DNA of 38,366 nt. It comes from Dermatophilaceae bacterium (lineage in GTDB: Bacteria; Actinomycetota; Actinomycetes; Actinomycetales; Dermatophilaceae). The DNA is taken from positions 1 to 38,366 of the forward strand of contig JACMPC010000145.1 of NCBI GenBank assembly GCA_014377705.1, in the 5' to 3' direction. Both the position numbers and the translations under genes were made by a program. Each line of letters opens with the position of its first letter. The stretch's first letter is position 1. Shown here one piece after another: positions 5,361 to 24,882 of the stretch. The notes under the pieces were generated by a model. That model made no database searches. It was not told the origin of the DNA and saw only the letters and a program-made list of their open reading frames with translations.

Positions 5361-5636
5361 GCCGGACAAGGAACCCTCGGAAGCATGCTCGGGGTGGTAC
5401 CTGTGGCCGCTGGGCGTCGAACTCCTGCGTCCCTGCTAAGCCCACCACGCAACGGTCCGTCGTGCCGGAGTGTCGCTTCCACTTATCGGCACGAGGTTGT
5501 GTCACGGTAAAAGCAGTAGTGGCTCTTGATAACTTGTCACCGCGCACCTCTCATCAAGGGCAACCAGGGTCATCCTCAGGGGCCGCCTACACCAACAGCG
5601 GCGAACGGCACTTCAGCCAGACGCTCAAGGAGAGTC

Positions 5637-6050: not shown

Positions 6051-6233
6051 ACAGGGCAGACTCCGGTTCGTCGACGAGACAGGCGAGCACTCGAGGCCTT
6101 GCGTGGCTCCGGGGATCTGGCGTCGCAGAACCCGGCCTGCTGCGTTCACAGGCAAGACGTCATCCATGTCACCTGCCAGGCGGAAGTCCACTGATGATGG
6201 CCAGGTTGTCCCCAGGCTACGGACGAGGGCAGG

Positions 6234-6995: not shown

Positions 6996-7092
6996 GCGCA
7001 CGCACGCGTCGCGCAGGTGAGTCACACCGTTTATGACGAGCCGGCAGCCAGTTGGCAACAACTGCCCAGTGGGGGGCCGGGCCGCTGGCCTG

Positions 7093-8368: not shown

Positions 8369-8425
8369 CCTCAGCCCTGCCCGGCGGTGAGGTCGCCTGA
8401 TCCGCGGTTCACTCTGCAGGCCCTT

Positions 8426-8443
8426 TGTTCACGATGTTCATGA
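8426..8443. promoter_or_regulatory. Tandem 9-bp repeat upstream of the SDR-dps operon (candidate operator)
   Basis: TGTTCACGA is followed directly by TGTTCATGA, one mismatch, 58-75 bases upstream of the SDR start in the gap that should hold the SDR-dps promoter. Seen directly: the repeat and its place. Inferred: a protein-binding site. No regulator can be named. Confidence 0.25.
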
Positions 8444-8480
8444 CAACTCCAACCGGCCGAACCCCTCCAGCTATTCCGCA

Positions 8481-9449
8481 TCAAATACCCCTGTTGAGAA
8501 CGGCCTCGGCGGCAGCCCGGCCGGACAGGAAGGCTCCCTCGATCCGGGGACCGCCATACCCGTCGCCGGCGAAGACGAGGCCCCCTTCGGCCCGCACCAG
8601 GCACGTCTGGGGATGCGGCTCGACCGGTGTCGCGTATCGCCATCGCTGCAGGCTGGTGTCAAGGATCTCGGCCCCGCCAAGCCAAGGCGACGCGGCCCGC
8701 AGCAGATCGGTGATCAGCGCGTCGTTGTCCTGCTCCCACCGGGCAGCCGCGACATCACTGCGGGTGTGCAAGGTGAGCGCCGGCACCGGCGATACACCCT
8801 TTGCCATATTGTCGCCGATCCACGACCAGGTCGGGTCGTCCTGGAGCTGGATGCCACCGGGAAAAGGAACTGATGGCCGGTCGCCGAGGGCGACGAGCAA
8901 CGAGATCGTCGGCGCATAGGCCAGCTCAGGGATCGTGGCCTGGCCGGCGACCAGGGCCGCCGACTGTGGTGCCGGTGGTGTCAGCACCACGACATCGGCC
9001 TCGAGCAACCCAGCCGATGCCCACCGGGTCGCCGGCCAGGTCACCGCCCAGCGACCTCCGACCTTTCGGACGCCGTCGACGTGAACCGACTGGCGGACGT
9101 CCAGACCCACGGTCATCCGCGCCGCCAGCTGCGCCATCCCGTCCGCGCCGACAAACCGGGGATGCCCGTCGTCGGAGGGGAAACCGCGACACCACTGCCG
9201 CACCGTGCCCTCGGCGAGCCATCGCGCCACCACCACTGAGAAAGCCTCGCTGCGGACCGTGAAGAACTGGGCGCCGTGGTCGGCGAACGCGCCACCGGCC
9301 ATCGCTCTGGTCGCCATCCGGCCGCCCGCGCGACGGCCCTTGTCCAGCACGGACACCACCTGTCCGGCGTCGGCGAGCAGCCGGGCGGCGGTGAGCCCCG
9401 CCATGCCCGCTCCGATCACGACAACCCGTGACGGGCTCGCAGCTGTCAC
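8481..9449 (-). CDS. FAD-dependent oxidoreductase, renalase-like, 322 aa
   Basis: This is a flavoprotein of the amine-oxidase fold. The dinucleotide motif VVVIGAGMAGLTAARLL is at about residues 9-25, then LDKGRRAGGRMATR and DHGAQFFTVRSEAF. Near the C-terminus GGLVFAGDGYGGPRIEGAF closes the FAD site. The GGRM...GAQFFT pattern is that of bacterial renalase-like proteins, which re-oxidise wrongly reduced NAD(P) isomers. The exact substrate here is inferred. Start: GTG 9449 is preferred because it overlaps the stop of the upstream gene as GTGA; the frame stays open beyond it but that part has no flavin-fold sequence. It is the last gene of a four-gene overlapping operon. Confidence 0.85.
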   Translation of the reverse strand: MTAASPSRVVVIGAGMAGLTAARLLADAGQVVSVLDKGRRAGGRMATRAMAGGAFADHGAQFFTVRSEAFSVVVARWLAEGTVRQWCRGFPSDDGHPRFVGADGMAQLAARMTVGLDVRQSVHVDGVRKVGGRWAVTWPATRWASAGLLEADVVVLTPPAPQSAALVAGQATIPELAYAPTISLLVALGDRPSVPFPGGIQLQDDPTWSWIGDNMAKGVSPVPALTLHTRSDVAAARWEQDNDALITDLLRAASPWLGGAEILDTSLQRWRYATPVEPHPQTCLVRAEGGLVFAGDGYGGPRIEGAFLSGRAAAEAVLNRGI

Positions 9450-10414
9450 GAACGATCGAAGACTGGATGGCGCCAACGATATGCGACGGACCCATCGAGG
9501 CAGGCCGGAATACCCTCGAGCACGCCGCGGTAGCGAGGAACCAGATCCAGCTCGGACCACAGCCTGCCAGGCATGAGCTGCAACGAGAGGTTCCAGCCCC
9601 TGATCGTGTCACCGGAGACCATGGTCGGTCCGCGCCGGCCCAGCACCATCCCGGCCACAGCGGCCCCGCCGGTGGCAAGGCGCCGGGGAACCCGCACTAC
9701 CCGGGTCTGGGGCGCAAAGGTCGTCAGGATCTCGAAGAAGTCGTTCCAGGTGACGGTCTCATCGTCGGCGACCGGTGCGGTGCCCGACCACCGCTGGAGC
9801 GCGGCGCCGATCAGCACCCTCGCGGCATCCTCGACGTGCAGCTGGGCAAAGGGGTTGTCTCCGGGGCCGGGGAACACCACCTTTCGGTGGCGTACCAGAC
9901 CGAAGAGGAGGCTCTGGGGTCCGTAGACGTGCGGCAGCCGAAGGCTGGCGACCGTTGGCCCGCCTGCCTCGGTGCCACGTGCGAGGGCCGCTTCGGCATC
10001 GAGCTTGGCCCTGCCATAGGCGAGCGCCGGGCTTGCTGCGGTGTCATCGCCGATCGCTGTCGACCCGTCGTAGACGAACATGCTGGACCCGTAGACGATG
10101 TGGCCGACGCCGGCTTCAGCTGCGGCGCGGGCCAGATGATCGGTGCCCTCCACCATCGTGGGGAACAGGCGCGGGTACGGCTCGAAGGTGGCGCGACCGC
10201 CCAGATGGATCACGACGTCAACCCGCTTCACCGCGCGGGCGAGCGACGGGGCCGACGTGAGGTCGCCGTACACGGGCTCGACATCCAGCCCGGCCAGCAG
10301 CGGCGCCCGGGAAGGCCTGCGGATCATCACCCGGGTCTGCTGGCCTGCTGCTGCGAGCTGTCGCACGACCTCGCTGCCGATGAACCCGGTTGCGCCCGTC
10401 AGCAAGATCGTCAC
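9446..10414 (-). CDS. NAD-dependent epimerase/dehydratase-like extended SDR, 322 aa
   Basis: This is a Rossmann-fold protein of the extended SDR class. GATGFIG is at residues 7-13 and DLTSAPSL follows the third strand. The Ser pair is at 110-111 (VYGSSMF), with catalytic Tyr133 and Lys137 in YGRAK. LRLPHVYGP and the late motif QLHVEDAARVL are typical of sugar-nucleotide epimerases and related reductases. The intact YxxxK makes it likely to be an active enzyme. Substrate is unknown. Its ATG overlaps the stop of the CPBP gene (bases 10411-10414) and its stop overlaps the start of the flavoprotein gene, so translation of the three is linked. Confidence 0.9.
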   Translation of the reverse strand: MTILLTGATGFIGSEVVRQLAAAGQQTRVMIRRPSRAPLLAGLDVEPVYGDLTSAPSLARAVKRVDVVIHLGGRATFEPYPRLFPTMVEGTDHLARAAAEAGVGHIVYGSSMFVYDGSTAIGDDTAASPALAYGRAKLDAEAALARGTEAGGPTVASLRLPHVYGPQSLLFGLVRHRKVVFPGPGDNPFAQLHVEDAARVLIGAALQRWSGTAPVADDETVTWNDFFEILTTFAPQTRVVRVPRRLATGGAAVAGMVLGRRGPTMVSGDTIRGWNLSLQLMPGRLWSELDLVPRYRGVLEGIPACLDGSVAYRWRHPVFDRS

Positions 10415-11253
10415 CCGACAGATCCTCCCACAACTCGCGTGAGCTTCCCCTGAGTCGGAGAGGCCTTTTCTGCCGGGATGTGTGGCACAGCCAGGTTGAG
10501 CTTCTCGATGCGGAACAACGGCGGGAGGTAGCGCAGCATCAGCACCGACCAGGTGAGGTGCGTCAGCGCGGACGCCTCGATGCCCCCCGAAGCCCGACGT
10601 TGCAACCCAAACAGGAGGCCCATGACCACGCTGGCCAGGACCAGTGCAGGGTTCCGGGTGGAAGCAGTGGCCAAGGCGTATGCCGCGGTCGACTTTGCCA
10701 CCGGGTGGCGTCTGCCCACCGCGGCGTAGAGAGCACCCCGGAAGAACAGCTCCTCGGCGAGGCCGTTGGCGCAGGTGGTCGCGATGACCAGCGGGGTCGA
10801 CCCGCGGTCGGCATACCGCAGCACCCGGGTGAGAGCCCTGTCCAGCACGGGCACGTGACGACAGGCACGCGCAGCCCCGTAGAACACGCAGAAGGCGCCG
10901 ACTCCGGTCACGACGGGTGTCACGAGGGGACGATGCAGGCTTTGGTCACGCCTCTGGGCCTGGCCCAGATGCAGCGGACCAGAGCCCAGGGCGCCACCGG
11001 CCCACGTTGCCGCGACGCCGAAGGTGAGAACGTAGAACCGCCGCGATCCGGGTCTGCTGGACAAGGACAGCCCGAGGAGAGCGGCCCCCGTCACACCAAC
11101 TCCCGTCACGATCCGGCGTCGGCGAGCATGCGCCTCATCCGTTTCTTGGTGGTCGCGGGGGACCTTGTCCCTGAGCGATCTGGGAAAGGGGCCGGGCAGG
11201 CTCGGACGCCCGTCATCAGGTCGTGCGTGCTTGGCGGGCCCGTCACTTCCCAC
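10411..11253 (-). CDS. CPBP-family intramembrane metalloprotease, 280 aa
   Basis: This membrane protein carries the CPBP (CAAX-protease / bacteriocin-processing, Abi) signature. EELFFR is at residues 167-172 of the form started at 11253, and a His with Trp two residues on (THLTW, His at 232) forms the second motif. Hydrophobic segments lie before, between and after these. The family holds Rce1-like glutamate proteases and proteins of unknown role. Start: GTG 11253 follows a GAGG and overlaps the upstream stop by 11 bases. An earlier in-frame start at 11355 would overlap over 100 bases and has low-complexity sequence. The first 45 residues are hydrophilic and variable, so a start further in is possible. 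It is the second gene of the overlapping operon. Confidence 0.85.
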   Translation of the reverse strand: MGSDGPAKHARPDDGRPSLPGPFPRSLRDKVPRDHQETDEAHARRRRIVTGVGVTGAALLGLSLSSRPGSRRFYVLTFGVAATWAGGALGSGPLHLGQAQRRDQSLHRPLVTPVVTGVGAFCVFYGAARACRHVPVLDRALTRVLRYADRGSTPLVIATTCANGLAEELFFRGALYAAVGRRHPVAKSTAAYALATASTRNPALVLASVVMGLLFGLQRRASGGIEASALTHLTWSVLMLRYLPPLFRIEKLNLAVPHIPAEKASPTQGKLTRVVGGSVG

Positions 11254-12139
11254 GCACCTCACGCTCCCGTTCGGCCAGGGCCTGGCGGACGGCCTCGTCG
11301 TACCCCATCGGATCGAACGGCACGAGAGCGCGGATCGAACCGTTCTTGACGACAACCTCGTTGGTCATCGAGTCCACCAGCGCTCGCGCCGTCTGGGTGT
11401 CGACGTCTGTGACGAGGGACAGCCAGAGCGACGACAGCTGAGGGGTCAGCAGGGGTACCGGCATCACGAGGAACTTGCGGCCCTGGATCTTCGCCACGCG
11501 GCGCATCATGGTGACGTACTCCAGCACCTCGGGACCGCCGATGTCGTAGGCATGGTCGGCTGCTTCGGGCAGCTCGAGCACGCCCACGAGGTAGCGAACC
11601 ACATCGTCGATGGCGATCGGCTGGGTACGGGTGCGGACCCAGCGCGGGGTGATCATGGCCGGCAGGTGCGCAACCAGCTGGCGGGTCAGCTCCCACGAGA
11701 TACCCCCGTGCCCGACGATGATCCCGGCGCGCAACGTGGTCACCGGGACCCCCGTACTGCCCAGCAGCTGTTCCACCCCGCGCCGGCTGCGCAGGTGCGC
11801 GGACAGGTCATCGTCATCGTCTCCCAGTCCCCCCAGATAGACGATCCGCTGCAGTCCAGCCGCGGCGGCAGCCTCCGCGAACGCACTGGCCGCATCAGCG
11901 TCTTTGCGCTCGAAGTCGGCGGAGTCCAGCGAGTGCACCAGGTAGTACGCCGCCTGAAATCCGGTGAGAGCGTCCTTCAGGGTCTGTGGATCGTGGACGT
12001 CGCCATAGACGGCTGCACTACCGCCCTCATAGGACGCCGGGCGTCGCGTCATGGCCTGCACGTCATAGCCAGCTGCGATCAGAGCCGGGCACAACCGCCT
12101 CCCGACAAAACCCGATGCGCCGGCAACCAGTACCTTCAC
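11243..12139 (-). CDS. NAD(P)-binding (NmrA-like, atypical SDR) protein, 298 aa
   Basis: The N-terminus LVAGASGFVGRRL is an NAD(P)-binding GxxGxxG motif. AMTRRP after the second strand suggests NADP. YLVHSL, RIVYLGGLG and LRAGIIVG follow, as in NmrA-like and atypical SDRs. The YxxxK catalytic pair is not evident; the usual Tyr position lies in the HLRSRRGVEQLL region. It may therefore be a redox sensor or an atypical reductase. A GTG start at 12139 has a strong GGAGGGAGG about 8 bases before it, so this is the first gene of the operon that continues through CPBP, epimerase-like SDR and flavoprotein genes. Upstream lies a short inverted repeat (TGGTC, 5 bases, GACCA at 12194-12208) that might bind a regulator. 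Confidence 0.88.
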   Translation of the reverse strand: MKVLVAGASGFVGRRLCPALIAAGYDVQAMTRRPASYEGGSAAVYGDVHDPQTLKDALTGFQAAYYLVHSLDSADFERKDADAASAFAEAAAAAGLQRIVYLGGLGDDDDDLSAHLRSRRGVEQLLGSTGVPVTTLRAGIIVGHGGISWELTRQLVAHLPAMITPRWVRTRTQPIAIDDVVRYLVGVLELPEAADHAYDIGGPEVLEYVTMMRRVAKIQGRKFLVMPVPLLTPQLSSLWLSLVTDVDTQTARALVDSMTNEVVVKNGSIRALVPFDPMGYDEAVRQALAEREREVRGK

Positions 12140-12454
12140 TGCGCCCTCCCTCCTCAGGTTCCGGTGTCGTGTCGAGCACTCCGGAACTCAGATTGGTCGA
12201 TAAGACCACAAAACTCAAGGGAGAGCGCTGTATGCCGTCATGCTCCGGTCTGCATACGCCGTCCAGGCAAGGCGGAAAGCGTCCCGGTGGCCGTGGGATG
12301 GCCCGGGCAAGGTGGCCTGGGCCGACGTGATCTCCAGGGCCTGTCTCTCAGCACTGGTCGATGGGCTCAGCCCCGTAGGCGGGGAGAAGCGTTCTAGTCG
12401 TTCGACCTCCTTCTTCGGCTCGATCATCTTGAGCTCGCGCCCCAATGCCAACCG
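12140..12454. other. Gap of 315 bases: promoter region of the minus-strand operon, otherwise nothing recognised
   Basis: The right-hand operon start at 12139 must draw its promoter from here. On the minus strand TTGAGT followed after 17 bases by CAATCT is the best weak match, and it overlaps the TGGTC/GACCA inverted repeat at 12194-12208. From about 12210 to 12454 no frame on either strand looks like a known protein. This part may be further debris of the broken gene that follows. Confidence 0.35.
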
Positions 12455-13183
12455 GTGAAACTGCTCGAGCTGGCAAGGACACCAACCTCTGGGTATGGAG
12501 CATCGAGCAGTCCCCAGAAGGTCGGCGGTGTTCTGCTCATCGCCCTGGTCGTCGCAGCCAACCTGCTCAACCTGTCCACGAACCGGTTGCTGGACCGAAC
12601 CATTGAAGACGTGGCAGTCGCTGGCCAGACCCTCGGCACCGTCGCAGCTACCAAAGTCCCTCCGTCACCGGGGCACTCGGGCGCCTTCCCGAAGATCTGG
12701 TCGGAACAGACTTCCTCGAGCTGGTCGATGAGGCGGATCGGGGCCTTGCCAGGGCCGGCTGACCGAAAGCATCGCCCGCCCCGGCAGACCGGTCAACGCC
12801 GAGCTGGGTCTGCGTAGTGGCGAGGCCTCGCCCGGCTCGGTGGCGACGAATTCACCATTGTCATCACCAGGGACGGACCTTCGCGGAGCGATCGACAACG
12901 GCGAGCTTGCGCTCCGTTACCAGCCGGCGCGATCCCTGACCTCCGGTCGGATCGAGACGGTGAACGCGTCGAGGATGTCCTCATCATCGAGGCGGTGATC
13001 ACCGTTGCCCATTCCCTGGGCATCCGCACTATCGCGGAGGGCGTTGAGACCGTGAAACAGCTTGAGGCCTTCCGCCGCCCGGGCTGCGACGGCGTCCAGG
13101 GCTTCCTGATGTCACGGCCGGTTCCGGGGTCGCAGGTTCCGGCGATGCTGGGTCTGGTGCAGAAGCCGGCCACGCTGGCCTAG
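12455..13183 (+). pseudogene. Remnant of a PAS-GGDEF-EAL cyclic-di-GMP enzyme
   Basis: Fragments of a signalling protein lie in the right order but in shifting frames. VLLIALVVAANLLNLSTN resembles a hydrophobic or helical N-terminal part. VTGALGRLPEDLVGTDFLELV, then LTESIARPGRPVNAEL after a frameshift near 12757, is a PAS domain. ARLGGDEFTIVI carries an intact GGDEF motif (12839-12853), with the front half of that domain missing. RGAIDNGELALRYQPARSL (from 12882) is the start of an EAL domain. It jumps directly to HSLGIRTIAEGVETVKQLEA and GCDGVQGFLMSRPVP, the end of an EAL domain, so about 150 residues including the EAL motif are gone. The intact gene would have made or destroyed cyclic di-GMP. 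Frameshifts, an in-frame stop and two large deletions show it is dead. Confidence 0.88.
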
Positions 13184-13214
13184 AGGGCAGCCCAGGTCAA
13201 GGTCGTGATCACCG

Positions 13215-13769
13215 TCAGAGCCGCCCCGGGTCCGCTCGCAGCTGCTTGACCAACCGGACACCGATGAGCTCCCCGAAGCGCTCGACCTCGCCCTTGACGT
13301 ATCCCGAGCTGAGGTACAGGTCGATTGCCGGGTGCTGGTCCGGCCCGGTCACCAGGGCCGCCGTCTCGTAGTCGAGCTGGCGAGCGCGATCCTCCAGCGC
13401 GCCGAGGAGGGCGCGCGCGAAGCCCTTCCCCTGATGGATGGGGCGCACGCGCATCCTCAGGATCTCGCAGCCCAGCGCGTCAACCTGCCACAGCCCGCCC
13501 ATGGCCACGACCTCGCCCTCGACCGCGCCGACCAGCATGGCGCCCCGCCGGCTCAGGTAGGACCCGGCGACGTCGTCCAGGTCGCCACCGTAGATGTCGC
13601 CGTCCTCGGGCACGCCCGCCGCCGCGAGCCCGTAGCGGTTCAGCTCGACCAGCGTCTCGTGGTCGGCGGGCTCGTAGTCACGGATGACCAACCCGGGCAG
13701 GGGCTCCGTGGGACCTGAGAAGGGACCAGAACAGGCGCGGTGCTGCTCGGCGCTACTTGCCGAGCTCAT
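13215..13769 (-). CDS. GNAT-family N-acetyltransferase, 184 aa
   Basis: This is an acetyl-CoA-dependent acetyltransferase of the GNAT fold. The domain starts at LVIRDYEPADHETLVELN. GEVVAMGGLWQ is the central strand, ILRMRVRPIHQGKGFARALL holds the acetyl-CoA pyrophosphate loop (QGKGFA), and AIDLYLSSGYVK is the C-terminal motif. The acceptor is unknown; it could be an amine or amino acid given its neighbours. The ATG at 13769 lies inside the end of the regulator gene (17-base overlap), so the two are co-expressed. The first 25 residues before the fold are variable, and a later start cannot be excluded. Confidence 0.9.
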   Translation of the reverse strand: MSSASSAEQHRACSGPFSGPTEPLPGLVIRDYEPADHETLVELNRYGLAAAGVPEDGDIYGGDLDDVAGSYLSRRGAMLVGAVEGEVVAMGGLWQVDALGCEILRMRVRPIHQGKGFARALLGALEDRARQLDYETAALVTGPDQHPAIDLYLSSGYVKGEVERFGELIGVRLVKQLRADPGRL

Positions 13770-14445
13770 CGTTGTCCAGCTCGTTGAGGTAGTTGTAGAC
13801 GGTGAACCGGGTGACGTGCAGCGCCTGGGCCGCCATACCGACGCTCTCCTTGAGCATGAAGAAGCCGCGGTCCTTAAGGTCGTTCACGACGGCGATCTTG
13901 TGCTTCTTGTGCATGAGGTCCACCGGCGCCCCGGCGACGTCGATCGCCTCGGCGAGCAGGTGCTGGGCGAGCTCGTCGATGTCCCGGGCGAACTTCTCCT
14001 CCTGTGGCTGTGCCGCCTGCTCGGCGGGCCCCTCACTCGGGAGCATCGCCTCTGCGATCGCCTTCACGGCCTGCCAGATCATCACGTCGGCGTTGATGCA
14101 CAGCGCTGCGACCGCGGTGCCCTCGGTGTCCCGGACCACGACGGTCGTCGACCGCAGTGACCTGCCGTCGGGGCGGCGCGTCTCGTAGCCCACCGTCGTG
14201 GCGATCGTCCCGTCCGCCGCCTTGCGGAGCAGCAGGTCGGTGGCCGGCCCTCCGACGCTGCGACCGGTCACGTCCCCGGCGATGGCCACGATCGAGTTGG
14301 GCAGGCGCCGCAGGTCGTGCAGGACAACCTCGCAGTCGTCGGGCAGGGTGCGGCTCAGCGGTTCGACGAGGGTGGCGAGCGTGGCAAGGACCTGCTCCGC
14401 GTAGTCCGCCGGGCGTCCCGCCGTCGACAGCGATCCGATGGTCAT
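13753..14445 (-). CDS. YheO-type PAS / HTH transcriptional regulator, 230 aa
   Basis: The N-terminal half has the YheO-like PAS pattern: VLHDLRRLPNSIVAIAGDVTGRSVGGPATDLLL, then GRSLRSTTVVVRDTEG and AALCINADV. The C-terminal half ends with a helix-turn-helix of the DauR/YheO kind (VGMAAQALHVTRFTVYNYLNEL). Regulators of this family sense amino acids or related small molecules and control adjacent catabolic genes. It diverges from tryptophanase and shares its control region, so it probably regulates tnaA, the permease and itself in response to tryptophan or indole. That role is an inference. ATG 14445 is chosen over an in-frame ATG at 14484 because GGAGAGGAAC precedes it. The GNAT gene overlaps its 3' end. 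Confidence 0.9.
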   Translation of the reverse strand: MTIGSLSTAGRPADYAEQVLATLATLVEPLSRTLPDDCEVVLHDLRRLPNSIVAIAGDVTGRSVGGPATDLLLRKAADGTIATTVGYETRRPDGRSLRSTTVVVRDTEGTAVAALCINADVMIWQAVKAIAEAMLPSEGPAEQAAQPQEEKFARDIDELAQHLLAEAIDVAGAPVDLMHKKHKIAVVNDLKDRGFFMLKESVGMAAQALHVTRFTVYNYLNELDNDELGK

Positions 14446-14488
14446 CCTCTGTTCCTCTCCACATCCGGACCAATATTGTGACATGTTG

Positions 14489-14538
14489 TTGAGTTGTTAT
14501 CAATCTTGTTGGACTCTTCAACTCAATTAGGTTACTTT
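14489..14538 (+). promoter_or_regulatory. tnaA promoter region with inverted-repeat operator
   Basis: TTGAGTTG (14489-14496) and CAACTCAA (14519-14526) form a perfect 8-base inverted repeat, 30 bp centre to centre, about three helical turns. A promoter-like TTGGAC (14509-14514), 18-base spacer and TACTTT (14533-14538) overlaps the right arm. The stretch is strikingly AT-rich for this genome. Seen: the repeats and their place between divergent genes. Inferred: the YheO-type protein binds here and controls tnaA. Confidence 0.45.
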
Positions 14539-14626
14539 GCTTGTAGGAGTGAACCGCTCAACGACGCGTGGAACGCTCCGCATCTGTAGTCGGGCGCAGC
14601 CCGGCAGCCACCCGAGGAGACGCGCC

Positions 14627-16006
14627 ATGCAGTACATGCCCGAGCCTTTCAAGATCAAGATGGTCGAGCCGATCCGGATCACCACCAGGCAAGAGCGTGA
14701 GGGCTTCATCCGGGACGCCAACTACAACACCTTCGCCCTCACGGCCGCGGACGTCTACATCGACCTCCAGACGGACAGCGGCACGGGCGCGATGAGCGAC
14801 TCCCAGTGGGCGGCTGTCATGCGGGGCGACGAGTCGTACTCCGGCGGTCGCAGCTACTACCGGCTGATGGACGCAGGCAAGGACATCTTCGGCTACGAGT
14901 ACCTCCAGCCGGTGCACCAGGGCCGCGCAGCCGAGAAGATCCTGTTCCCGCTGCTGGTGACCACCCCGGGGCAGTACGTCATCTCCAACATGTTCTTCGA
15001 CACCACCCGGGCGCACGTCGGTCTGGCCGGCGGTCGCGCCGTCGACTGCGTCTGCCCGCAGGGCATGGACTCGAGCACGTACTTCGACTTCAAGGGCAAC
15101 ATGGACGTCCCGAAGCTCGAGACACTGATCACAGAGTATGGCGCAGAGAACGTCGCGGCGATCGTCATGACGATCACCAACAACAGCGTCGGCGGCCAGC
15201 CGGTCTCCATGGAGAACATGCGTGAGACCGCGAGGGTCGCCCACCAGAACGGCATCACCGTCGTCATCGATGCGGCCCGGTACGCCGAGAACGCCTACTT
15301 CATCAAGGAGCGCGAGGCCGGCTACGAGGACGCCTCACCCATCGAGATCACCCGCGAGATGTTCAGCTACGCCGACGTCTTCACGATGAGCGCGAAGAAG
15401 GACGCGCTGGTCAACATGGGCGGTCTGGTCGCCGTCCGCGAGGACCAGGTCCTCAGCGACGCGATCAAGACGTCCTGCATCGCCTTCGAGGGCTACCTCA
15501 GCTACGGGGGCCTGTCCGGCCGCGACCTCGAGGCGATGGCCACCGGCCTGTACGAAGGCCTGGACCCCGACTTCTTGCGCTACCGCATCGGGCAGATGCA
15601 GTATCTCGCCGCACGGCTCACCGAGTACGATATCCCGTTCCAGAACCCCGTCGGTGGCCACGCGGTCTTCGTCGACGCGGGCAAGATGCTCCCGCACATC
15701 CCGTGGTACGAGTTCCCCGGCCAGGCCCTGGCGATCGAGCTCTACGTGGAGGCCGGCATCCGCAGCTGCGACATCGGCTCCTACCTGATGGACCGCGACC
15801 CGGTGACCCGTGAGCAGCTTCAGGCGCCGTTCGAGTTCACCCGTCTGGCTGTCCCGCGCCGCGTCTACACCCAGGCGCACCTCGACGTGGTCGCCGAGGC
15901 CCTCAAGGCGGTCAAGGACCGTGCCGCCGATGTCCAGGGTTACGTGATCACCTGGGAGCCGAAGGTCCTGCGTCACTTCACCTCGCACCTCAAGCCAGTC
16001 GGCTGA
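14627..16006 (+). CDS. tnaA: Tryptophanase (L-tryptophan indole-lyase), 459 aa
   Basis: This PLP enzyme splits L-tryptophan into indole, pyruvate and ammonia. The PLP lysine is in SAKKDA (Lys257-258, the second expected to bind PLP). The main look-alike is tyrosine phenol-lyase, and three specificity positions decide against it. Asp125 (FFDTTR) matches tryptophanase Asp137, where TPL has Thr124. Ile383 (CDIGSY) stands where TPL has Arg381. His450 (KVLRHFT) matches tryptophanase His463, where TPL has Phe448. The C-terminal [14 protein letters not shown] is also tryptophanase-like. ATG 14627 is chosen for its GAGGAGA 6 bases upstream; an in-frame upstream extension looks unlike the family. Length is close to the E. 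coli enzyme. The next gene, 15 bases on, is an amino acid permease. No Trp-containing TnaC-like leader peptide was found. Confidence 0.93.
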
Positions 16007-16021
16007 GCAGGGAAAACGAAC

Positions 16022-17470
16022 ATGAGTACTGAAGCACGGCAGGGGCCAGCGGTCGCGGAGGCGGCCGGGCGGATCCGCGGCGGCCACGGGACGAGCCCGC
16101 AGGCTGACGGCGGGCTGCGACGAGGGCTGAAGAACCGTCATATCCAGATGATCGCGCTGGGCGGCGCCATCGGGACCGGGCTCTTCTACGGCTCCGCCAC
16201 CAGCATCGGCATGGCCGGGCCATCCATCCTGCTGTCGTACCTGCTCGGTGGTGCGGTGATCTTCCTCATCATGCGGGCCCTGGGCGAGATGTCGGTGCAC
16301 ACTCCGGTGTCGGGCGCCTTCAGCCACTACGCGTTCCAGAACTGGGGACCGTTCGCCGGGTTCTTCTCGGGATGGAACTACTGGTTCAACTACATCGCGG
16401 TCAGCATGGCCGAGCTGGCAGTGGTCGGCATCTATGTGAACTACTGGCTGCCGGGCGTGCCTGCCTGGGTCTCCGCGGCGCTCTTCCTCGTGCTGATCAC
16501 TGGCGTCAACCTGATCAACGTCAAGGCGTACGGCGAGTGCGAGTTCTGGTTCGCGATCATCAAGGTCGTCGCGATCGTCGCGATGATCGGCCTGGGTGCC
16601 GCCATCATCCTCTTCGGCGTCGGCACCGGCGGCAAGGCGACAGGGATCACGAACCTCTGGGTCCACGGGGGCTTCTTCCCCAACGGCATCTGGGGCATGC
16701 TCACCGCGCTGGTGGTCGTCATGTTCTCCTTCGGCGGCGTCGAGCTGATCGGCATCACCGCCGGCGAGGCCGAGAACCCAGACCGCACCATCCCCAAGGC
16801 GATCAACCAGGTCGTCTACCGCATCCTCATCTTCTATGTCGGCGCCATCTTCGTGATGCTCTGCATCTTCCCGTGGAACCAGATCGACGCCGGGGGCAGC
16901 CCCTTCGTCATCATCTTCGACCGGATCGGCATCGCCGGCGCGGCGACGCTGCTCAACGTGGTCGTCCTCACGGCGGCCGTCTCGGCATACAACAGCGGTC
17001 TCTACAGCAACGGGCGGATGCTCTACAGCCTGTCCCGGCAGGGCGACGCGCCTCGCTACCTCAGCAAGCTCAACAGGAGCGGCTCCCCCTATGCCGGCGT
17101 GCTGACGTCGTCGGCCGTGACCGCCGTGGCCGTCGTGCTCAACTTCTTGTTCCCCGGCAAGGTCTTCCTGTATCTCATCTCCGTCGCGCTCATCGCGGGC
17201 ATCTTCAACTGGTCGATGGTCGTCATCACCCAGATGAGGTTTCGCAGGCGCATCGGCGTGGGCGAGGTCGACAAGCTCGGGTTCAAAATGCCGTTCTACC
17301 CGGTCGCGAACTACGCCGTCCTCGCCTTCCTGGCGGGGGTCGTGGTCCTGATGGCCTTCCTGCCCGACTTCAGGTACGCCCTGTACGTCGGTCCGGCCTG
17401 GGTCGCCATCCTGTACGTGGCGTACCGGATCAAGACGTCCGCCGCGCGACGTGTGACCGCACCTGCCTAA
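16022..17470 (+). CDS. Amino acid permease of the APC family (AroP/LysP-like), 482 aa
   Basis: This is a 12-helix proton-coupled amino acid importer of the cytoplasmic membrane. The first helix carries the family signature RGLKNRHIQMIALGGAIGTG (about residues 34-53). MRALGEMSVHTPVSGAF and FSFGGVELIGITAGEAENP are the other AAT-family motifs, and YNSGLYSNGRMLYSL is in helix 8. The first 30 residues are a cytoplasmic tail. The substrate is probably tryptophan or another aromatic amino acid, because the gene follows tnaA after only 15 bases in what should be one transcript. That is a context inference, since related permeases carry GABA, lysine or proline. AGGGAAAA lies upstream of the ATG. A long hairpin follows the stop. 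Confidence 0.92.
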   Translation: MSTEARQGPAVAEAAGRIRGGHGTSPQADGGLRRGLKNRHIQMIALGGAIGTGLFYGSATSIGMAGPSILLSYLLGGAVIFLIMRALGEMSVHTPVSGAFSHYAFQNWGPFAGFFSGWNYWFNYIAVSMAELAVVGIYVNYWLPGVPAWVSAALFLVLITGVNLINVKAYGECEFWFAIIKVVAIVAMIGLGAAIILFGVGTGGKATGITNLWVHGGFFPNGIWGMLTALVVVMFSFGGVELIGITAGEAENPDRTIPKAINQVVYRILIFYVGAIFVMLCIFPWNQIDAGGSPFVIIFDRIGIAGAATLLNVVVLTAAVSAYNSGLYSNGRMLYSLSRQGDAPRYLSKLNRSGSPYAGVLTSSAVTAVAVVLNFLFPGKVFLYLISVALIAGIFNWSMVVITQMRFRRRIGVGEVDKLGFKMPFYPVANYAVLAFLAGVVVLMAFLPDFRYALYVGPAWVAILYVAYRIKTSAARRVTAPA

Positions 17471-17478
17471 CCCGCCTG

Positions 17479-17520
17479 CGGCAATGGCTCCCCACCGGAT
17501 GCGGCGGGCAGCCATTGCCG
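17479..17520. terminator. Long hairpin between convergent permease and MFS genes
   Basis: CGGCAATGGCT (17479-17489) pairs perfectly with AGCCATTGCCG (17510-17520). The 20-base inner part can pair further (CCCACCG with CGGCGGG, one mismatch, GATG loop). No T-run follows on either side. It is probably a bidirectional terminator or mRNA-end stabiliser for the two converging transcripts. Confidence 0.6.
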
Positions 17521-17557
17521 TATCGCTGGCTGGCCCGGAACGCCCCTCACGCCCGGG

Positions 17558-19081
17558 TCAGGCCTGATCCGAGACCGCTGTGAGGGGCGGGCCGTCGACC
17601 GGACAGCAGGGCCGCATCGACGGTGACTCCGGAGGGGGGCCTTCGGGGACGGCGCCGGGATGAGGCTCAGGGGCACGGACAAAGACGGCAGCCAGGAGTC
17701 CGCCGGTGACCAGGAGCGCGACACAGACCCAGATCACTGTGCGGAAGGCGGGTTCGAGGACGGCCGGATCGGCGTAGCCGAGCCCGCTCAACCCGGCCAC
17801 CAGGGGCAGGACCGCCACGGCCAGCAGCCCGCCGATCCGGGCCACCGCGTTGTTGACCCCGCTGGCGAGCCCGGCCCGGCTCTCGGCGACAGCGGCGAGG
17901 GCGGTCGCCGTCAGGGGAGCCACCGTCAGCGCCAGCCCGGCGCCGAACACTGACACCGGCGGCAGCACATCCACGAGGTAGGACGCGTCCGGGCCGATGC
18001 GCGACAGCCCGGCGACGCCCGCCGCGGCCAGGATCGGCCCCGCTGTCATCGGTATCCGCGGCCCGGTCCGCGCGCTCAGCGCCCCTGCGCGCGCGGAGAA
18101 GGCCAGCATGATCAACGTCACCGGCAGCAGCGAGACCCCGGCTGCCAGCGGTGTGAAACCGGCCACGACCTGAAGGGTCAGGACCAGCCAGAAGAAGATC
18201 CCGCCCAGCGCGGCATACACCGCGAAGGTCACGGCGTTGGCGGCGCTGAACACGCGGGAGGCGAAGATGCTCAGCGGCAACATCGGCTCGCTGGTGCGCA
18301 ACTCCCAGGCGAGGAAGCCGGCAGTCCCCGCCAGGCCGGCGGCCAGCGACCCCCAGACTGCCGGTGAGCCGATCCCCCTGGTGGGCCAGGCGATCAGCCC
18401 GTAGGTCAGTGCCGCCAGTCCCACGGCCGCCAGCCCGGCCCCGGTGACGTCGATGTGGCGGGACGCGGCCGGGTCGCTGGACTCCGGGACGTACCGGCGG
18501 GCGACGACCATGACTGCAAGGGCGATGGGGACGTTGATCAGGAAGATCCAGCGCCACGAGGTGACCCCGATCAGCCACCCCCCGATGAACGGACCGGTGG
18601 CCCCGGCGATGCCGCCGAGCCCGGACCAGGCACCGATGGCGCGCCCCCGGTCAGCCGGGCGGAAGGACGCCTGCAGGATGGCGAGGCTGCCCGGGGTCAG
18701 CAGAGCTCCGCCCACCCCCTGCAGCCCGCGGGCGGCGACCAGCATCTGGATGTTCGGCGCCAGCCCGCAGAGCATCGAGGCCAGCGCGAACCACGCCACC
18801 CCGACGATGAATACCCGGCGCCTGCCGAGGCGGTCCCCCAGGGAACCACCCAGCAGGATGAGACACGCAAGCGTCAGGGTGTAGGCATTGACCGTCCAGG
18901 TCAGTGCGGAGAGCCCCGCGTCCAGGTCCTCGCCGATGACGGGCAGGGCGATGTTGACCACTGTCGCGTCGACGAACGTCAGGCTGGAGCCCAGGACTGT
19001 GGCCATGAGCACCCACCGCGCCGCCGGCTCCCCGTAGGCAAGCCCCACCTCTGGCGCAGTGCCACTCCGCCCGGTGCCCAT
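17558..19081 (-). CDS. MFS drug exporter, DHA2 (14-TM, EmrB/QacA-type), 507 aa
   Basis: This is a proton-driven exporter of the major facilitator superfamily. Motif D1 is present as FVDATVVNIALPVIGEDL in helix 1. Motif A follows helix 2 (GGSLGDRLGRRRVF). Motif C, typical of exporters, is in helix 5 (GSGLGGIAGATGPFIGGW-like). Hydrophobic segments continue to about residue 475, consistent with 14 helices. The last 35 residues are Pro-rich and cytoplasmic. Substrates are toxic organic compounds or dyes in this family; here the substrate is unknown. It might export indole or another metabolite from the convergent tryptophanase genes, but nothing in the sequence shows this. The region before the ATG at 19081 has no strong ribosome site. 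Confidence 0.92.
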   Translation of the reverse strand: MGTGRSGTAPEVGLAYGEPAARWVLMATVLGSSLTFVDATVVNIALPVIGEDLDAGLSALTWTVNAYTLTLACLILLGGSLGDRLGRRRVFIVGVAWFALASMLCGLAPNIQMLVAARGLQGVGGALLTPGSLAILQASFRPADRGRAIGAWSGLGGIAGATGPFIGGWLIGVTSWRWIFLINVPIALAVMVVARRYVPESSDPAASRHIDVTGAGLAAVGLAALTYGLIAWPTRGIGSPAVWGSLAAGLAGTAGFLAWELRTSEPMLPLSIFASRVFSAANAVTFAVYAALGGIFFWLVLTLQVVAGFTPLAAGVSLLPVTLIMLAFSARAGALSARTGPRIPMTAGPILAAAGVAGLSRIGPDASYLVDVLPPVSVFGAGLALTVAPLTATALAAVAESRAGLASGVNNAVARIGGLLAVAVLPLVAGLSGLGYADPAVLEPAFRTVIWVCVALLVTGGLLAAVFVRAPEPHPGAVPEGPPPESPSMRPCCPVDGPPLTAVSDQA

Positions 19082-19200
19082 GGCTCAGTGTCTCCCAGGT
19101 GGTTGGTCCGACGGCCGGCTCGGGACCTGTGCTCGGGAAGTCGATCGCCAGGCCCACCCGCTGTCTTCCCAGGTGGGTGCTCTCATCGAGGGCCCCGCGT

Positions 19201-19650
19201 TCACCCCCGTAAGTCGGTCCTCGGAGACAGGACGAACACCGGGATCGACCGGTCCGTCTTGGCCTGGTAGTCGGCATAGTCGGGAAAGGCAGCCACGCAT
19301 CGCTCCCACCAGATCGCCTTTTCGCCGCCGGTGACCTCACGGGCGGTCATCGCCTGGACGACCGTTTCGTCCCGCAGCTCAACTCGGGGGTCAGCGACGA
19401 GGTTGTTGTACCAGACCGGGTTCTTGGGGGCACCACCCATCGAGGCCACGGCGGCATACTCGCCGTCATGCTCGACCCGCATCAGCGGCACCTTGCGCAC
19501 CTTGCCGGACCTGGCGCCGCGGGTGGTCACGATGATCACCGGCATGTCGCGCATGGTCGTGCCCGAGGAGCCACCTGACCCCTCGTACTCCTCGACCTGG
19601 TCGCGGACCCACTGGGCAGTGCTGGGCTCATACTCACCGTTCAGGGACAT
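19201..19650 (-). CDS. Nitroreductase-family deazaflavin (F420)-dependent oxidoreductase, 149 aa
   Basis: This belongs to the DDN-like family that uses reduced coenzyme F420. The core is [21 protein letters not shown], then [20 protein letters not shown] and [17 protein letters not shown], all diagnostic of the family (Mycobacterium Ddn and relatives). Length is normal. Start ATG 19650 is preferred because family similarity begins at once ([19 protein letters not shown]). An open extension upstream is low-complexity. The natural substrate is unknown; relatives reduce quinones or other unsaturated ketones. It implies that the host makes F420, as actinobacteria do. It stands alone between the MFS gene and the ABC permease, all on the minus strand. 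Confidence 0.92.
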
Positions 19651-19717
19651 GGGCCCACTCAACACCACATGCCCGGGTGCCGCACAGTCCTCCCAAACAT
19701 CTGATGACCTCGCCCGC

Positions 19718-20578
19718 TCAGCCGGTGACGTCTTTGTCCGAGAACCGGGCCCAGGCGGCAAGCCAGAAGACCAGCATGTATCCGGCGGCCGTCAGCAGCC
19801 CACGGGTCAGGTCGCCCCACGCAACGGGGTCCCTCAGGACGTCGCCGAAGGACATCCACCAGTGCGTGGGCAACCACTCGTGCAGCCAGGACAGCTGTGG
19901 GATCGAGTCGAGGATGAAGCTGAGGACGTTGATGATGACCACCGCGATGGTCGCACCGATCGGCTGCTCGGTAAGGGTCGAGATGAACAGCCCGATCGCC
20001 CCCAGAGAGGCGAAGCACAACCCGAGATAGAGGGTGGCCATGGCCAGGCGCAGGACCGCCGAACCCATGCCGATCTGGGTGCCGGAGAGCAGGGTCATCT
20101 CACCACCACCGAACAGTGCCACCCCGACGACCGCGCCCACCAGCGAGACCCACACCGTGGCCACCAGCGAGAAGATGGTGATGGCGGCGAGCTTCACCGC
20201 CAGCAGCCGCGTGCGATGCACCGGGACCGTCAGCAGATAGCGCAGCGTTCCTATGTTCGCCTCACCAGCCACCGAGTCTCCCGCGATGGTGCCCACCGCC
20301 AGCGGCAGGAACAGACCCAGCTCGATGCTCAGCGCAGCCAGCGCGACAAACAGCCCGTTGGACGTGATCGAGCTGAGGAAGTCAGGTCCGCGTCCCGGCC
20401 TGGGCGTCGACACCTTGACGGCGATCGCGATGATGATCGGCACCACGGCCAGGATGCCCATCCCCGCCTGGTTGCGGCGGCGTCCGAAGATCAGCCGCAG
20501 CTCGGAGCGCAGGAAGCGGGCGGAGATGTGCCGCAGCGGTCGTTCCGCCGGCGCGATGGAGACGTCAGCCGCTGACAT
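19718..20578 (-). CDS. ABC-2 type transporter permease, 286 aa
   Basis: This is the membrane half of an ABC exporter. About six hydrophobic segments lie from the N-terminal [15 protein letters not shown] to the C-terminal [13 protein letters not shown]. The segment [26 protein letters not shown] is the typical ABC-2 cytoplasmic coupling region. Its start overlaps the end of the ATPase gene by 14 bases, which fixes the partnership. The operon order is LolA-like protein, ATPase, permease. The substrate is unknown; the LolA-like partner suggests handling of lipid or a lipoprotein-linked molecule at the outer face of the membrane. Confidence 0.9.
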
Positions 20579-21539
20579 TGAAGCCCTCCCCGGTCAGTGA
20601 GACGAACAGGTCCTCGAGGCTCGGCCGCTCGAGGGCGAACCCGGTCACCGGCACACCGTCCTGCACCAGCGCCATCACGATCTTCTCCGCAGCGACCGCG
20701 CCCACGGTGCCTACGGCCAAACCGGGTTCGGCCACCACGTCTGTCAGCCCGAGCCCCCGCAGTACGCGTGCAGCATCCTGCGGACGGTCGGTGACCACCC
20801 TGGCCTTCGGCTCGCTGACTGCCCGCACCTGGGCGATCGGCCCCTGGGTCAGCAGGCTGCCGACGTGCATCACCCCGATGTGGGTGCACACCTGCTCGAC
20901 CTCGGACAGGAGGTGGCTGGAGATCAGCACCGTGGCCCCGTCGTCGGCCAGCGAACCGATGAGGTGGCGCACCTCGCGGGTCCCCTGCGGGTCCAGGCCG
21001 TTGGTCGGCTCGTCGAGCACCAGCAGCTCCCGGGGGGCGAGCAGCGTGCCCGCGATCGCGAGCCGCTGACGCATCCCCAGGGAGTAGGCGCGGTACTTCT
21101 TGTCGGCCGCAGCGAGCAGTCCCACCCGGTCCAACGCACCATCGATCCTGACCTTGGTGGTGCGCGGATCGGCATGGCGGTCAACGGAGTCCAGTCGCAC
21201 CAGGTTGGCCCGGGCCGACAGGTACGGGTGAAACGCCGGCCCCTCGACCAGCGACCCCACCAGCGGCAGGACATTCCCCGTATGGTCGGGCATCGCCTTG
21301 CCGAGCAGACGGTGATGGCCTGCGGTGGGCCGGATCAGCCCAAGCAGCATCCGGATCGTCGTGGTCTTGCCGGAGCCGTTCGGTCCGAGGAAACCGTAGA
21401 CGGCACCGCGTGGCACCAGCAGGTCGACGGCGTTGACCGCGACCTGCTGGTGGAACCGTTTGGTCAGTCCCGAGGTGGCGACCGCCAGGTTCTCCATCGC
21501 GAGGCCCTCCATCCCAGCGTCACCTGGCGCGCCGGTCAC
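20565..21539 (-). CDS. ABC transporter ATP-binding protein (DrrA/NatA-like), 324 aa
   Basis: This is the ATPase for the adjacent ABC-2 permease. Walker A GPNGSGKTT is at residues 52-60. The signature is YSLGMRQRLAIA (near 157), Walker B is LLVLDEPTNGLD and the switch His is in ISSHLL. A C-terminal regulatory extension of about 100 residues follows, ending with the family-typical ERPSLEDLFVSLTG. The GTG start at 21539 overlaps the stop of the LolA-like gene as GTGA. An ATG 14 codons further in (before ENLAVATSG), with GGAGGG 6 bases upstream, is an equally good candidate and better fits the usual N-terminus. Confidence 0.93.
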   Translation of the reverse strand: MTGAPGDAGMEGLAMENLAVATSGLTKRFHQQVAVNAVDLLVPRGAVYGFLGPNGSGKTTTIRMLLGLIRPTAGHHRLLGKAMPDHTGNVLPLVGSLVEGPAFHPYLSARANLVRLDSVDRHADPRTTKVRIDGALDRVGLLAAADKKYRAYSLGMRQRLAIAGTLLAPRELLVLDEPTNGLDPQGTREVRHLIGSLADDGATVLISSHLLSEVEQVCTHIGVMHVGSLLTQGPIAQVRAVSEPKARVVTDRPQDAARVLRGLGLTDVVAEPGLAVGTVGAVAAEKIVMALVQDGVPVTGFALERPSLEDLFVSLTGEGFNVSG

Positions 21540-22756
21540 CTAGCTGCCAGCGCGGCGTACAGACCCTCCGGCGTCACGGCCCCGACCACCAGCCTGCCGT
21601 CATCGGTGAGCAGCGCCGAGAACGCGGTTCCGGCCATCAGGTGCCCCGAGCCCCAGCTGCCCGAGACCTTGGGCAGGAGGGCGGCGATCTTCGTCAGCTG
21701 CTCGAGGTTCTTGTCAGCCGCTCCTCCCGTGCTGCCACTGGCGCCCGTCTTGGCGTTGGCCGCGGGCATCTTGACCACCATCACGGCACCCCAGCCTTCG
21801 CCGACCACCTTGGGCATGTCAGCCGAGCTCGGTTGCGGCGCAACGGCCCTGCTCTTGCCCGTCGCGACATCCCCGGCACCGCTCACCCTGGCGTCGGTCA
21901 CCTTGGCCTCGGTCACCGTGGTGCCCGGCGGCGCCTTGAAGGCGAACTGGGCGGCGTCCGGCCGGGCGAAATCGACAGCGCTGAACCCCACCTCGAACAC
22001 CGGGTCGGAGACCTTCTTGGCGAACACCTGAACCCGCAGCGGAACGTGCTCGGCGCCGTCGATGGCCACCCTGACCTGAGCCACCAGCGAGGTCGTCTCC
22101 TTAGGGGTGAGCACGAGCTCATAGGCTGAACGCCCGGCCACCGTGGCGGTGCCGCTGGTCGTCACCACGGTGCTCGCGCTGATCGCCCCGAGCGCCTTCT
22201 CGGCGGCAGCCTGCGGCGAGGTGGGCAGGTCGGCCGCGCCCGGCATACCGGCGGCGGGCCTGGTGGCGGACTGCTTGGCGGCAGAGTGCTTGGCGGCTGC
22301 ACCGGTCAGCGTCGCGCTCGTTGGTGCCACGTAGTGTCTGGCCGTCTTGTCCTGGCTGGACCAGACCCAGACGTCCTTTCCGTTACGGATCACGTCAGAC
22401 TCGCCCAGCGTCCCGAGCAGGGCCATCCGCGCCTTGTCGGGGCCGGCGAACCAGACCCGCATGGTGTGCGTGCCTGAGATCAGGGAGGTCAGGTCCGAGC
22501 TGGCCATCCCGCCCGAGCCGCCCGAGCCGGGAAGACTCGGCAGACCGAGATCGGACTTCTGGACCACGGTCCCGGACAGTCCGTCCAGGCGTGCCTTCTG
22601 AACATCCACCAGAAGCTGGGCGGCGCTGCGTTCCGGCAACCCGGAGCCGGCGCTCGCCTGCAGCGCCCCAACTGCCGAACCTCCTCCGACAAGTGCCACC
22701 GCGGTCACCGCTGGAACCGCCCACCGCAGGGCCGGGGACTTCTCGAAGATGCTCAT
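21536..22756 (-). CDS. LolA-like secreted protein, first gene of an ABC operon, 406 aa
   Basis: An N-terminal membrane/signal segment (ALRWAVPAVTAVALVGGGSAVGAL, residues 8-31) precedes a domain of the LolA/LppX/RseB fold. Recognisable parts are the opening SAAQLLVDVQKARLDGLSGTVVQ, VWVWSSQDKTARHYV, the strand YELVLTPKETTSLVAQVRVAIDG, and VFEVGFSAVDFARPDAAQFAFKAPPG. Such domains bind lipids or lipoproteins in a hydrophobic pocket. Two inserts are Ala/Ser/Gly-rich linkers. The protein likely sits outside the membrane and works with the ATPase and permease that follow. ATG 22756 has GAGG near it, and the longer frame upstream is not protein-like. The promoter lies in the 80 bases shared with the divergent two-component system. 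Confidence 0.85.
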   Translation of the reverse strand: MSIFEKSPALRWAVPAVTAVALVGGGSAVGALQASAGSGLPERSAAQLLVDVQKARLDGLSGTVVQKSDLGLPSLPGSGGSGGMASSDLTSLISGTHTMRVWFAGPDKARMALLGTLGESDVIRNGKDVWVWSSQDKTARHYVAPTSATLTGAAAKHSAAKQSATRPAAGMPGAADLPTSPQAAAEKALGAISASTVVTTSGTATVAGRSAYELVLTPKETTSLVAQVRVAIDGAEHVPLRVQVFAKKVSDPVFEVGFSAVDFARPDAAQFAFKAPPGTTVTEAKVTDARVSGAGDVATGKSRAVAPQPSSADMPKVVGEGWGAVMVVKMPAANAKTGASGSTGGAADKNLEQLTKIAALLPKVSGSWGSGHLMAGTAFSALLTDDGRLVVGAVTPEGLYAALAAR

Positions 22757-22778
22757 GGCCTCATCTTGCACCCGCCCC

Positions 22779-22800
22779 CCTGAGAGGCACCTGAGAGTCA
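22779..22800. promoter_or_regulatory. Two 11-bp direct repeats between the LolA-ABC operon and the two-component genes
   Basis: CCTGAGAGGCA (22779-22789) is followed at once by CCTGAGAGTCA (22790-22800), one mismatch, in the 80-base divergent region. OmpR-family regulators typically bind tandem direct repeats with an 11-bp period. I infer that this is the binding site of the adjacent response regulator, controlling itself and the ABC operon. Confidence 0.5.
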
Positions 22801-22836
22801 GTGCGTGCCAGCGCAGGCCGTGACAGTCTGTATGTC

Positions 22837-24881: not shown

Positions 24882-24882
24882 C

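Follow-up and report, generated by a model that had tools for sequence, protein, structure and literature searches.

How is tryptophanase controlled in an actinobacterium, and how did its gene come to be there? Indole serves as a signal between bacteria and hosts, and of the ways in which its formation is controlled, the TnaC leader of enterics is the best studied. We examined this question in a contig of a Dermatophilaceae bacterium (GenBank assembly GCA_014377705.1, contig JACMPC010000145.1), the analyzed stretch of which, 38,366 nucleotides (nt) long, we call the window, and which carries a tryptophanase gene, tnaA, between a divergent gene for a YheO-type regulator and a gene for an amino-acid permease. 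For this locus we computed the genes, the specificity triad of the enzyme, the conserved linkage, the operators with their spacing, and the tree grouping that implies transfer. These sequence comparisons lead us to favor, with moderate confidence, a reading in which the three genes form a transferred cassette and the YheO-type protein represses tnaA through phased operators.

A conserved regulator-tnaA-permease unit

The three genes lie at the following positions.

13753 to 14445, minus strand: YheO-type regulator gene (PAS_6 and HTH_22), 230 amino acids, ATG at 14445, divergent from tnaA
14627 to 16006, plus strand: tnaA, predicted tryptophanase, 459 amino acids, with a Shine-Dalgarno-like gaggag upstream of the ATG
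16022 to 17470, plus strand: APC-family amino-acid permease (AroP/PheP-like), 482 amino acids, starting 15 bp after tnaA; Pfam AA_permease

We compared the window's four proteins (these three and that of a neighboring GNAT gene) with 61 tnaA loci, including the window's own and 24 of them actinobacterial, counting matches of at least 50 bits. The regulator gene stood beside tnaA in 19 of the 24 actinobacterial loci, divergently upstream in 16 (frameshifted in L123, and 800 bp away in L134) and downstream of the permease in three (L130, L132 and L135). No regulator gene was seen at L118, L119, L121, L129 and L137, in the last of which the stretch upstream of tnaA was not covered. The permease gene lay downstream of tnaA in 18/24 actinobacterial loci; it was fragmented in L134 and was not found at L119, L123, L129 and L137; L136, the contig of which ends within tnaA, was not judged. 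By this comparison of gene order, the conserved unit is regulator-tnaA-permease. A PAS_6 search of 13 genomes, ten of which hold a tnaA of this kind, found one PAS_6 gene in 7 of these ten, always adjoining tnaA, and none in the tnaA-bearing genomes G041, G090 and G109 or in three genus mates that lack tnaA. Outside the actinobacteria, a YheO-like gene was near tnaA in two of 37 loci, both from Bacillota (L029 and L015, with 31% and 25% identity), and the end of the helix-turn-helix (HTH) of these proteins differs from that of the actinobacterial regulator.

A palindrome that accompanies the regulator gene

Side-by-side reading of the gaps in related loci brought out a palindrome, TGTTGA-N5-TCAACA, which in the window takes the form of the main candidate operator, O1.

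14507 to 14523, no strand assigned: O1, TGTTGGACTCTTCAACT, 2 mismatches to TGTTGA-N5-TCAACA, overlapping the likely tnaA -35

With at most 2 mismatches and within 330 bp upstream of tnaA, the palindrome occurred in 14 of the 18 loci with an intact regulator gene (exactly in 6 of them) and in none of the five in which this gene is absent (L118, L119, L121 and L129) or broken (L123), giving a Fisher value of 0.0037 over rows that are related by descent. Because an exact copy stays at tnaA in the loci where the regulator gene sits behind the permease (L130, L132 and L135), we tied the palindrome to the control of tnaA. In L123 (genome G056), the regulator gene is frameshifted in the assembly and the operator is missing too, which might reflect either decayed control or a sequencing error.

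A leave-one-out position weight matrix (PWM) was made from 13 rows (L010 was dropped as a near copy of L009, and L011, L127, L128 and L134 were unused); in every one of the 13, the chosen site came out as the best of its locus. The score of O1, 17.3, was the best in the window's 38 kb, followed by 12.7, while in the five loci with an absent or broken regulator gene no score above 3.2 was reached within 300 bp upstream of tnaA, and scores went up to 10.7 elsewhere. Searching the host assembly with TGTTGR-N5-TCAACW and one mismatch gave 19 matches on both strands, as compared to 7 for the pattern read backwards.

A different regulator might bind the palindrome, or it might be left over from a promoter, with the YheO-type protein having little or no hold on tnaA; the two regulator-bearing loci without a clear motif (L011 and L134) would fit this. 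However, the motif goes with the regulator gene in the counts given above, the site at the tnaA promoter is the best of its locus in every matrix row, and no close match lies upstream of 29 unlinked yheO genes, which makes this explanation quite unlikely. These 29 genes, from the class and unlinked to tnaA (their genomes lack a tnaA of this kind according to the class-wide draw described below), were those of 32 other matches that came with a locus; no match with at most 1 mismatch lay upstream of them, and two matches had 2 mismatches, with three spacer lengths allowed. As the operator was also absent from the E. coli yheO gap, we rejected it as a general YheO motif. In the regulator tree, from which six short rows had been dropped beforehand, the tna-linked actinobacterial regulators formed one clade of 17 rows (95/92) with the unlinked L190 as its sister, and the two Bacillota regulators fell outside this clade on long branches. 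The palindrome thus seems, from its distribution, to belong to the tna-linked regulator subfamily.

The original prediction had instead pointed to an 8-bp inverted repeat in the gap between the divergent genes, overlapping a promoter-like sequence. The repeat exists (14489-14496 and 14519-14526, with 22 bp between its arms and 30 bp from start to start) but did not hold as evidence for an operator: when the 181-bp gap was shuffled by dinucleotides, 69 of 1000 sequences contained at least one such repeat. The right arm of the repeat partly overlaps O1. The promoter-like sequence is likewise present, but on the minus strand, which makes it that of the regulator gene.

Spacing of the sites and promoter geometry

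Weaker copies of the palindrome flank O1, and the following elements can be placed in the gap.

14487 to 14503, no strand assigned: O1-20, a weak candidate operator beside O1 (TGTTGAGTTGTTATCAA, 4 mismatches) that takes in the -35 of the regulator promoter; it ranks within the top 0.02% of window positions
14547 to 14563, no strand assigned: O1+40, a second weak candidate operator (GAGTGAACCGCTCAACG, 4 mismatches), placed shortly after the point where tnaA transcription is expected to start; it ranks within the top 0.09% of window positions
14509 to 14538, plus strand: likely tnaA promoter, -35 TTGGAC (14509-14514) inside O1 and -10 near 14531-14538 (GTTACT or TACTTT)
14475 to 14503, minus strand: likely regulator promoter, TTGATA-17-CACAAT, its second hexamer preceded by TG; one such match in 5 kb, where 0.3 would be expected

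The mean leave-one-out score peaked at offsets of -20 (z 12.5), +40 (z 14.9) and -60 (z 10.4) from the main site, and more weakly at -40 (z 6.2) and +60 (z 4.5), the z values being taken from 60 shuffles of single bases. As 20 bp is about two helical turns, sites spaced in this way would lie on about one face of the DNA. The best offsets of the window and three Cellulomonadaceae rows were +40 and -20, and the three best of the other nine rows alone were -20, -60 and -40.

A -35-like TTGxxx lay within the left half of the main site, and -10-like hexamers followed at the right distance, with a sum of 43 over the 13 rows against a shuffled mean of 29.2 (sd 3.1), when the best of four positions was taken in each row; one of 2000 shuffles did as well. 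From these elements we infer the likely tnaA promoter, with its -35 inside O1, and with it the probable start of transcription. Because O1 lies on the likely -35, and because in the window's clade another site lies past the expected transcription start, we chose repression as the likely mode of action and regard activation as its main rival.

As an activator, the YheO-type protein would act at the O1-20 region and recruit polymerase when its ligand is present. Side sites upstream of O1, at -20 and -60, would suit such a role, and regulators of the YheO kind need not repress; for another PAS regulator, HeuR of Campylobacter, the text consulted settles neither the mode of action nor PAS_6 membership. 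The position of the strongest site over the -35 in most rows, with another past the expected start in the window's clade, is however the usual geometry of a repressor. Moreover, five actinobacterial loci keep tnaA with the adjoining regulator gene absent or broken, and three of the genomes concerned, G041, G090 and G109, lack any PAS_6 gene, a pattern not easily reconciled with an essential activator. We therefore consider activation unlikely.

Several observations weigh against repression through phased operators. The side sites of the window are weak, and the +40 peak derives from the window and Cellulomonadaceae rows, falling outside the best six offsets of the other nine; in L120, L122 and L133, the best site is found at -71 to -74 and not at -115 to -135. 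Of the 18 loci with an intact regulator gene, 4 lack the operator or show it unclearly: no clear site is present in L011 (Cutibacterium namnetense) or L134, the L127 copy carries 3 mismatches, and that of L128 appears only with a 6-bp spacer. The sites in the PWM were picked by the same consensus and came from only 13 rows. Further copies of the motif occur in L125 (1 mismatch, 5 kb off) and elsewhere in L133 and L134 (2 mismatches each), and the motif is not unique in the host assembly, where TGTTGR-N5-TCAACW is found exactly in two places, O1 and a site on contig C118. In four of the five loci with an absent or broken regulator gene, the upstream region is wholly different in look, so that the loss of the gene and of the site are not clearly two events. 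Lastly, the structure model of the regulator was modest (mean pLDDT 73), and we know of no ligand for a PAS_6 domain.

Leader peptides and RNA elements

A leader of about 80-90 nt probably precedes tnaA, and control by a tryptophan-sensing leader peptide or another RNA element, as in enterics, would leave the regulator to serve elsewhere. In favor of this, a TTG-started frame that runs over O1 and the leader and ends in W-N-A-P-H-L-stop can be made out by eye. However, this frame begins near the -35, upstream of the expected transcript, and no open reading frame (ORF) of 5-45 codons starts in the 115 nt before tnaA in the window. Tryptophan-containing leader ORFs were found in 5 of 23 loci (L122, L128, L133, L134 and L135) and had no common sequence. 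There was no Rfam match within 12500-18500, and the folding of the leader was not unusual (z -1.14). Lacking a conserved tryptophan ORF, an Rfam match and extraordinary folding, a leader peptide or known RNA family was rejected, and we hold leader control to be the least probable of the alternatives weighed here. The part of the original prediction that placed tnaA under a YheO-type regulator instead of a TnaC leader thus finds indirect backing, in a conserved operator that tracks the regulator gene and in the want of a conserved tryptophan leader ORF.

Origin of the cassette

In the TnaA tree, the window's protein fell together with all but one of the five Cellulomonadaceae proteins (100/100), L126 being placed among Propionibacteriaceae, and the six tryptophanases of the host's own family formed a separate clade (100/100). 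The regulator (95/96) and the permease (Shimodaira-Hasegawa approximate likelihood ratio test, SH-aLRT, 92; not starred) also grouped with Cellulomonadaceae rows. Tryptophanases of this kind, with at least 67% identity, occurred in 7 of 149 genomes of the host family including the window's own (27/149 when more distant homologues and tyrosine phenol-lyase, TPL, are counted), in 5 of 200 genomes of the family of Cellulomonas timonensis, a species that carries this same cassette, and in 12 of 197 of the family of Cutibacterium, two of these being partial. Under a stricter limit, a draw of 394 genomes from the class yielded only the window's own tryptophanase. In the host-family draw, the window's own was the sole protein of the 81-84% group, and 20 genomes had nothing closer than more distant homologues; the C. 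timonensis-family draw held four 81-84% proteins, and no genome with only more distant ones. Judging from these two draws, the host itself probably does not belong to the Cellulomonas family. Within its genus, tnaA was found in one of four genomes, being absent from the incomplete assemblies (68, 79 and 87% complete) of the three genus mates.

From 19221 rightward, synteny with each of the three genus mates, at 79-86%, extends to 24873 or beyond, reaching 28207 in one of them. This synteny led us to reject the possibility of a foreign or misbinned contig. Left of 19221, the matches to genus mates are scattered, with two short ones at E 1e-60 or better in 1-13200, and a gene for a transporter of the major facilitator superfamily (MFS) has a 1.25-kb match at 67% in one genus mate. 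The window from 1 to 19220 (about 19 kb) is poorly matched in the genus mates, and the strain-specific stretch may therefore far exceed the cassette. Similarity at the DNA level to the Cellulomonadaceae locus L124 (81%) extends from 13764 to 17451, just the three genes. The G+C content is 65.3% in tnaA and the permease gene, 68.7% in the regulator gene, and 68.0% in 19221-28207.

The incomplete genus-mate assemblies would leave room for a cassette that was inherited vertically and lost in these relatives. The grouping of all three genes with Cellulomonadaceae, the separate clade of the host family's six tryptophanases, and the change at 19221 from synteny to scattered matches argue against this, and make vertical inheritance very improbable. 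Lateral acquisition of the regulator-tnaA-permease cassette, which had been raised as a possibility from the sequence of the locus, is well supported by the trees, the absence from genus mates and the synteny break. The direction of transfer and the donor can be proposed on the same grounds, and a third donor is possible.

Substrate class of the lyase

The TnaA protein belongs to the Beta_elim_lyase family (Pfam PF01212, 270 bits), and its active-site lysine lies in the context SAKKDALV, which contains the SAKKD typical of this family dependent on pyridoxal phosphate. It scored 712.7 bits against the NCBIfam subfamily model PRK13238 'tryptophanase', above the cut-off of 285, and stayed below the cut-offs of both tryptophanase equivalogs (600.7 and 596.1 bits against 750 and 825.8) and of the TPL equivalog (534.7 against 720.7). 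Six of seven related proteins that were scanned, including those of Cellulomonas and Cutibacterium, showed the same pattern, and the only one to pass, from a member of the Bacteroidia, exceeded one tryptophanase equivalog cut-off. Because six of the seven score alike, we regard the window's TnaA as part of a distinct branch and not as an odd single protein.

With D125, I383 and H450, the protein has the same D-I-H as four solved tryptophanases in the alignment, whereas a solved TPL has T-R-F in these columns, which we take to be determinants of specificity between the two enzymes. In an alignment of 100 proteins, counted after three partial rows had been dropped, D-I-H occurred in 76, T-R-F in 22, and D-V-H and E-I-N in one each. 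As the T-R-F triad is absent and D-I-H is present, TPL was rejected as the identity of the protein, and its assignment as a tryptophanase, already made in the original prediction, is supported by this triad together with the tree. The enzyme would accordingly make indole from tryptophan. Among solved structures, its best-scoring relative is 8SIJ, 'Tryptophanase 1' (650 bits across almost the full length), which has the same D-I-H triad but groups in the tree with Bacillota and Spirochaetota rows, outside the actinobacterial clade.

Two other groups of lyases appeared in this comparison. L102 (G740:C1:2046852-2048222) encodes a beta-eliminating lyase that shares 53% identity with the TnaA of the window and reads E-I-N at the specificity columns; it bears neither the tryptophanase nor the TPL signature, sits on a long branch (0.81), and might use another substrate. 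A second actinobacterial D-I-H group (L056, L064, L105 and others), with FDTTRAN and SAKKDPMG and about 49-52% identity to the window's TnaA, appears to be a distinct tryptophanase-like group, the three tree rows of which lie on a branch of 1.04 changes per column.

Regulator, permease and neighboring genes

The regulator has, in order, PAS_6 (PF08348, 100.2 bits at 20-128) and HTH_22 (PF13309, 62.2 bits at 161-221), in agreement with its earlier description as a divergent YheO-type regulator. A sequence search of the PDB with this protein gave zero matches up to E 1, and Foldseek returned weak matches to its model, mostly to PAS/LOV proteins (best E 2e-4, TM 0.27 by query length), with no hint of a ligand. 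The best NCBIfam models of the permease were AroP and PheP, both under their cut-offs (AroP 519 against 848 bits). In belonging to the APC family (AA_permease), this permease is unlike TnaB of E. coli, which is of another family.

13215 to 13769, minus strand: GNAT acetyltransferase gene (Pfam Acetyltransf_1), outside the conserved cassette

The GNAT gene shares 17 bp with the 3' end of the regulator gene and had been counted as a member of the island. We found no match to it (E 1e-6 or better and at least 50 bits) around the other 60 tnaA loci, 23 of them actinobacterial, and therefore rejected it as a member of the cassette; by gene order it is a local neighbor. Next to it, 12818-13180 is a remnant EAL-domain gene that retains only the C-terminal part of that domain (Pfam EAL, E 2.3e-13), directly preceded by the string LGGDEF, presumably a GGDEF-like motif. 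On the other side, the MFS transporter gene (17558-19081, 72.6% G+C) lies between the permease and the synteny break, and has its best DNA matches in Cellulomonas, at 70%, on contigs other than that of tnaA.

Comparison with known systems and proposed model

The tnaCAB operon of E. coli is described as an operon for tryptophan transport and catabolism with a tryptophanase (PMC10941005, PMC3902921), and in this combination of enzyme and transport the window is like it. The window differs in that we found no TnaC-like leader, and in having a divergent PAS_6/HTH_22 regulator with operators in the promoter. Tryptophanase in actinobacteria is already known. According to passages of one paper, Cutibacterium modestum genomes carry tnaA and 6 of 8 strains are weakly indole-positive, and Cutibacterium acnes is indole-positive in Bergey's manual and in 62% by a kit (PMC8620323); those passages do not discuss regulation. 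A survey also includes tnaA of C. acnes, which it marks as indole-negative, and that of S. erythraea and of S. scabiei (PMC8537960). The locus of C. namnetense (L011) has the same regulator-tnaA-permease order as the window, but its TnaA is 69% identical and it has no clear operator.

Our search of the literature on PAS_6 regulators found nothing beyond Campylobacter and Streptomyces. CfiR (Cj1387c) of Campylobacter jejuni, a YheO-like protein with PAS_6 and HTH, is reported from proteomics as a repressor of the adjacent gene in a text whose passages at hand give no operator (PMC4519771). Unlike the regulator studied here, it acts on cj1388, a RidA homologue by the title of a second paper (PMC6742949). 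Among the titles and abstract openings listed by our searches of the open-license literature, we found no paper on the regulation of actinobacterial tnaA, and a search for tryptophanase and YheO gave one E. coli transcriptome paper. What is new here is the detail of control, and the function of the enzyme is ordinary.

In the model that we favor, a dimer of the regulator would bind TGTTGA-N5-TCAACA over the tnaA -35, and further regulator would occupy the weaker copies at -20 and +40 bp, all of them on roughly one face of the helix. Bound in this way, it would block RNA polymerase at tnaA-permease and probably at its own promoter as well. Binding of a ligand to PAS_6, in the simplest case tryptophan or a compound closely derived from it, would then free the regulator from the DNA, and TnaA would convert tryptophan imported by the permease to indole, pyruvate and ammonia; that tryptophan is the inducer is our guess. 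The wider proposal of a mobile cassette with its own tryptophan- (or indole-) sensing PAS_6 repressor and operators phased at 20 bp, in which PAS_6 would be a sensor of aromatic amino acids, we put forward only tentatively, as somewhat less than an even chance.

If the model is true, a protein repressor would be a second, independent switch for indole production, found in actinobacteria, in which a protein sensor acting at the start of transcription would replace the ribosome-arrest peptide of the enterics. The specific operator with its conserved spacing, which is what this analysis adds, would also provide an operator for a tna-linked YheO-type regulator, and a handle toward the PAS_6 ligand. 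The spread of the cassette by lateral transfer would show a route by which indole production passes between high-GC bacteria.

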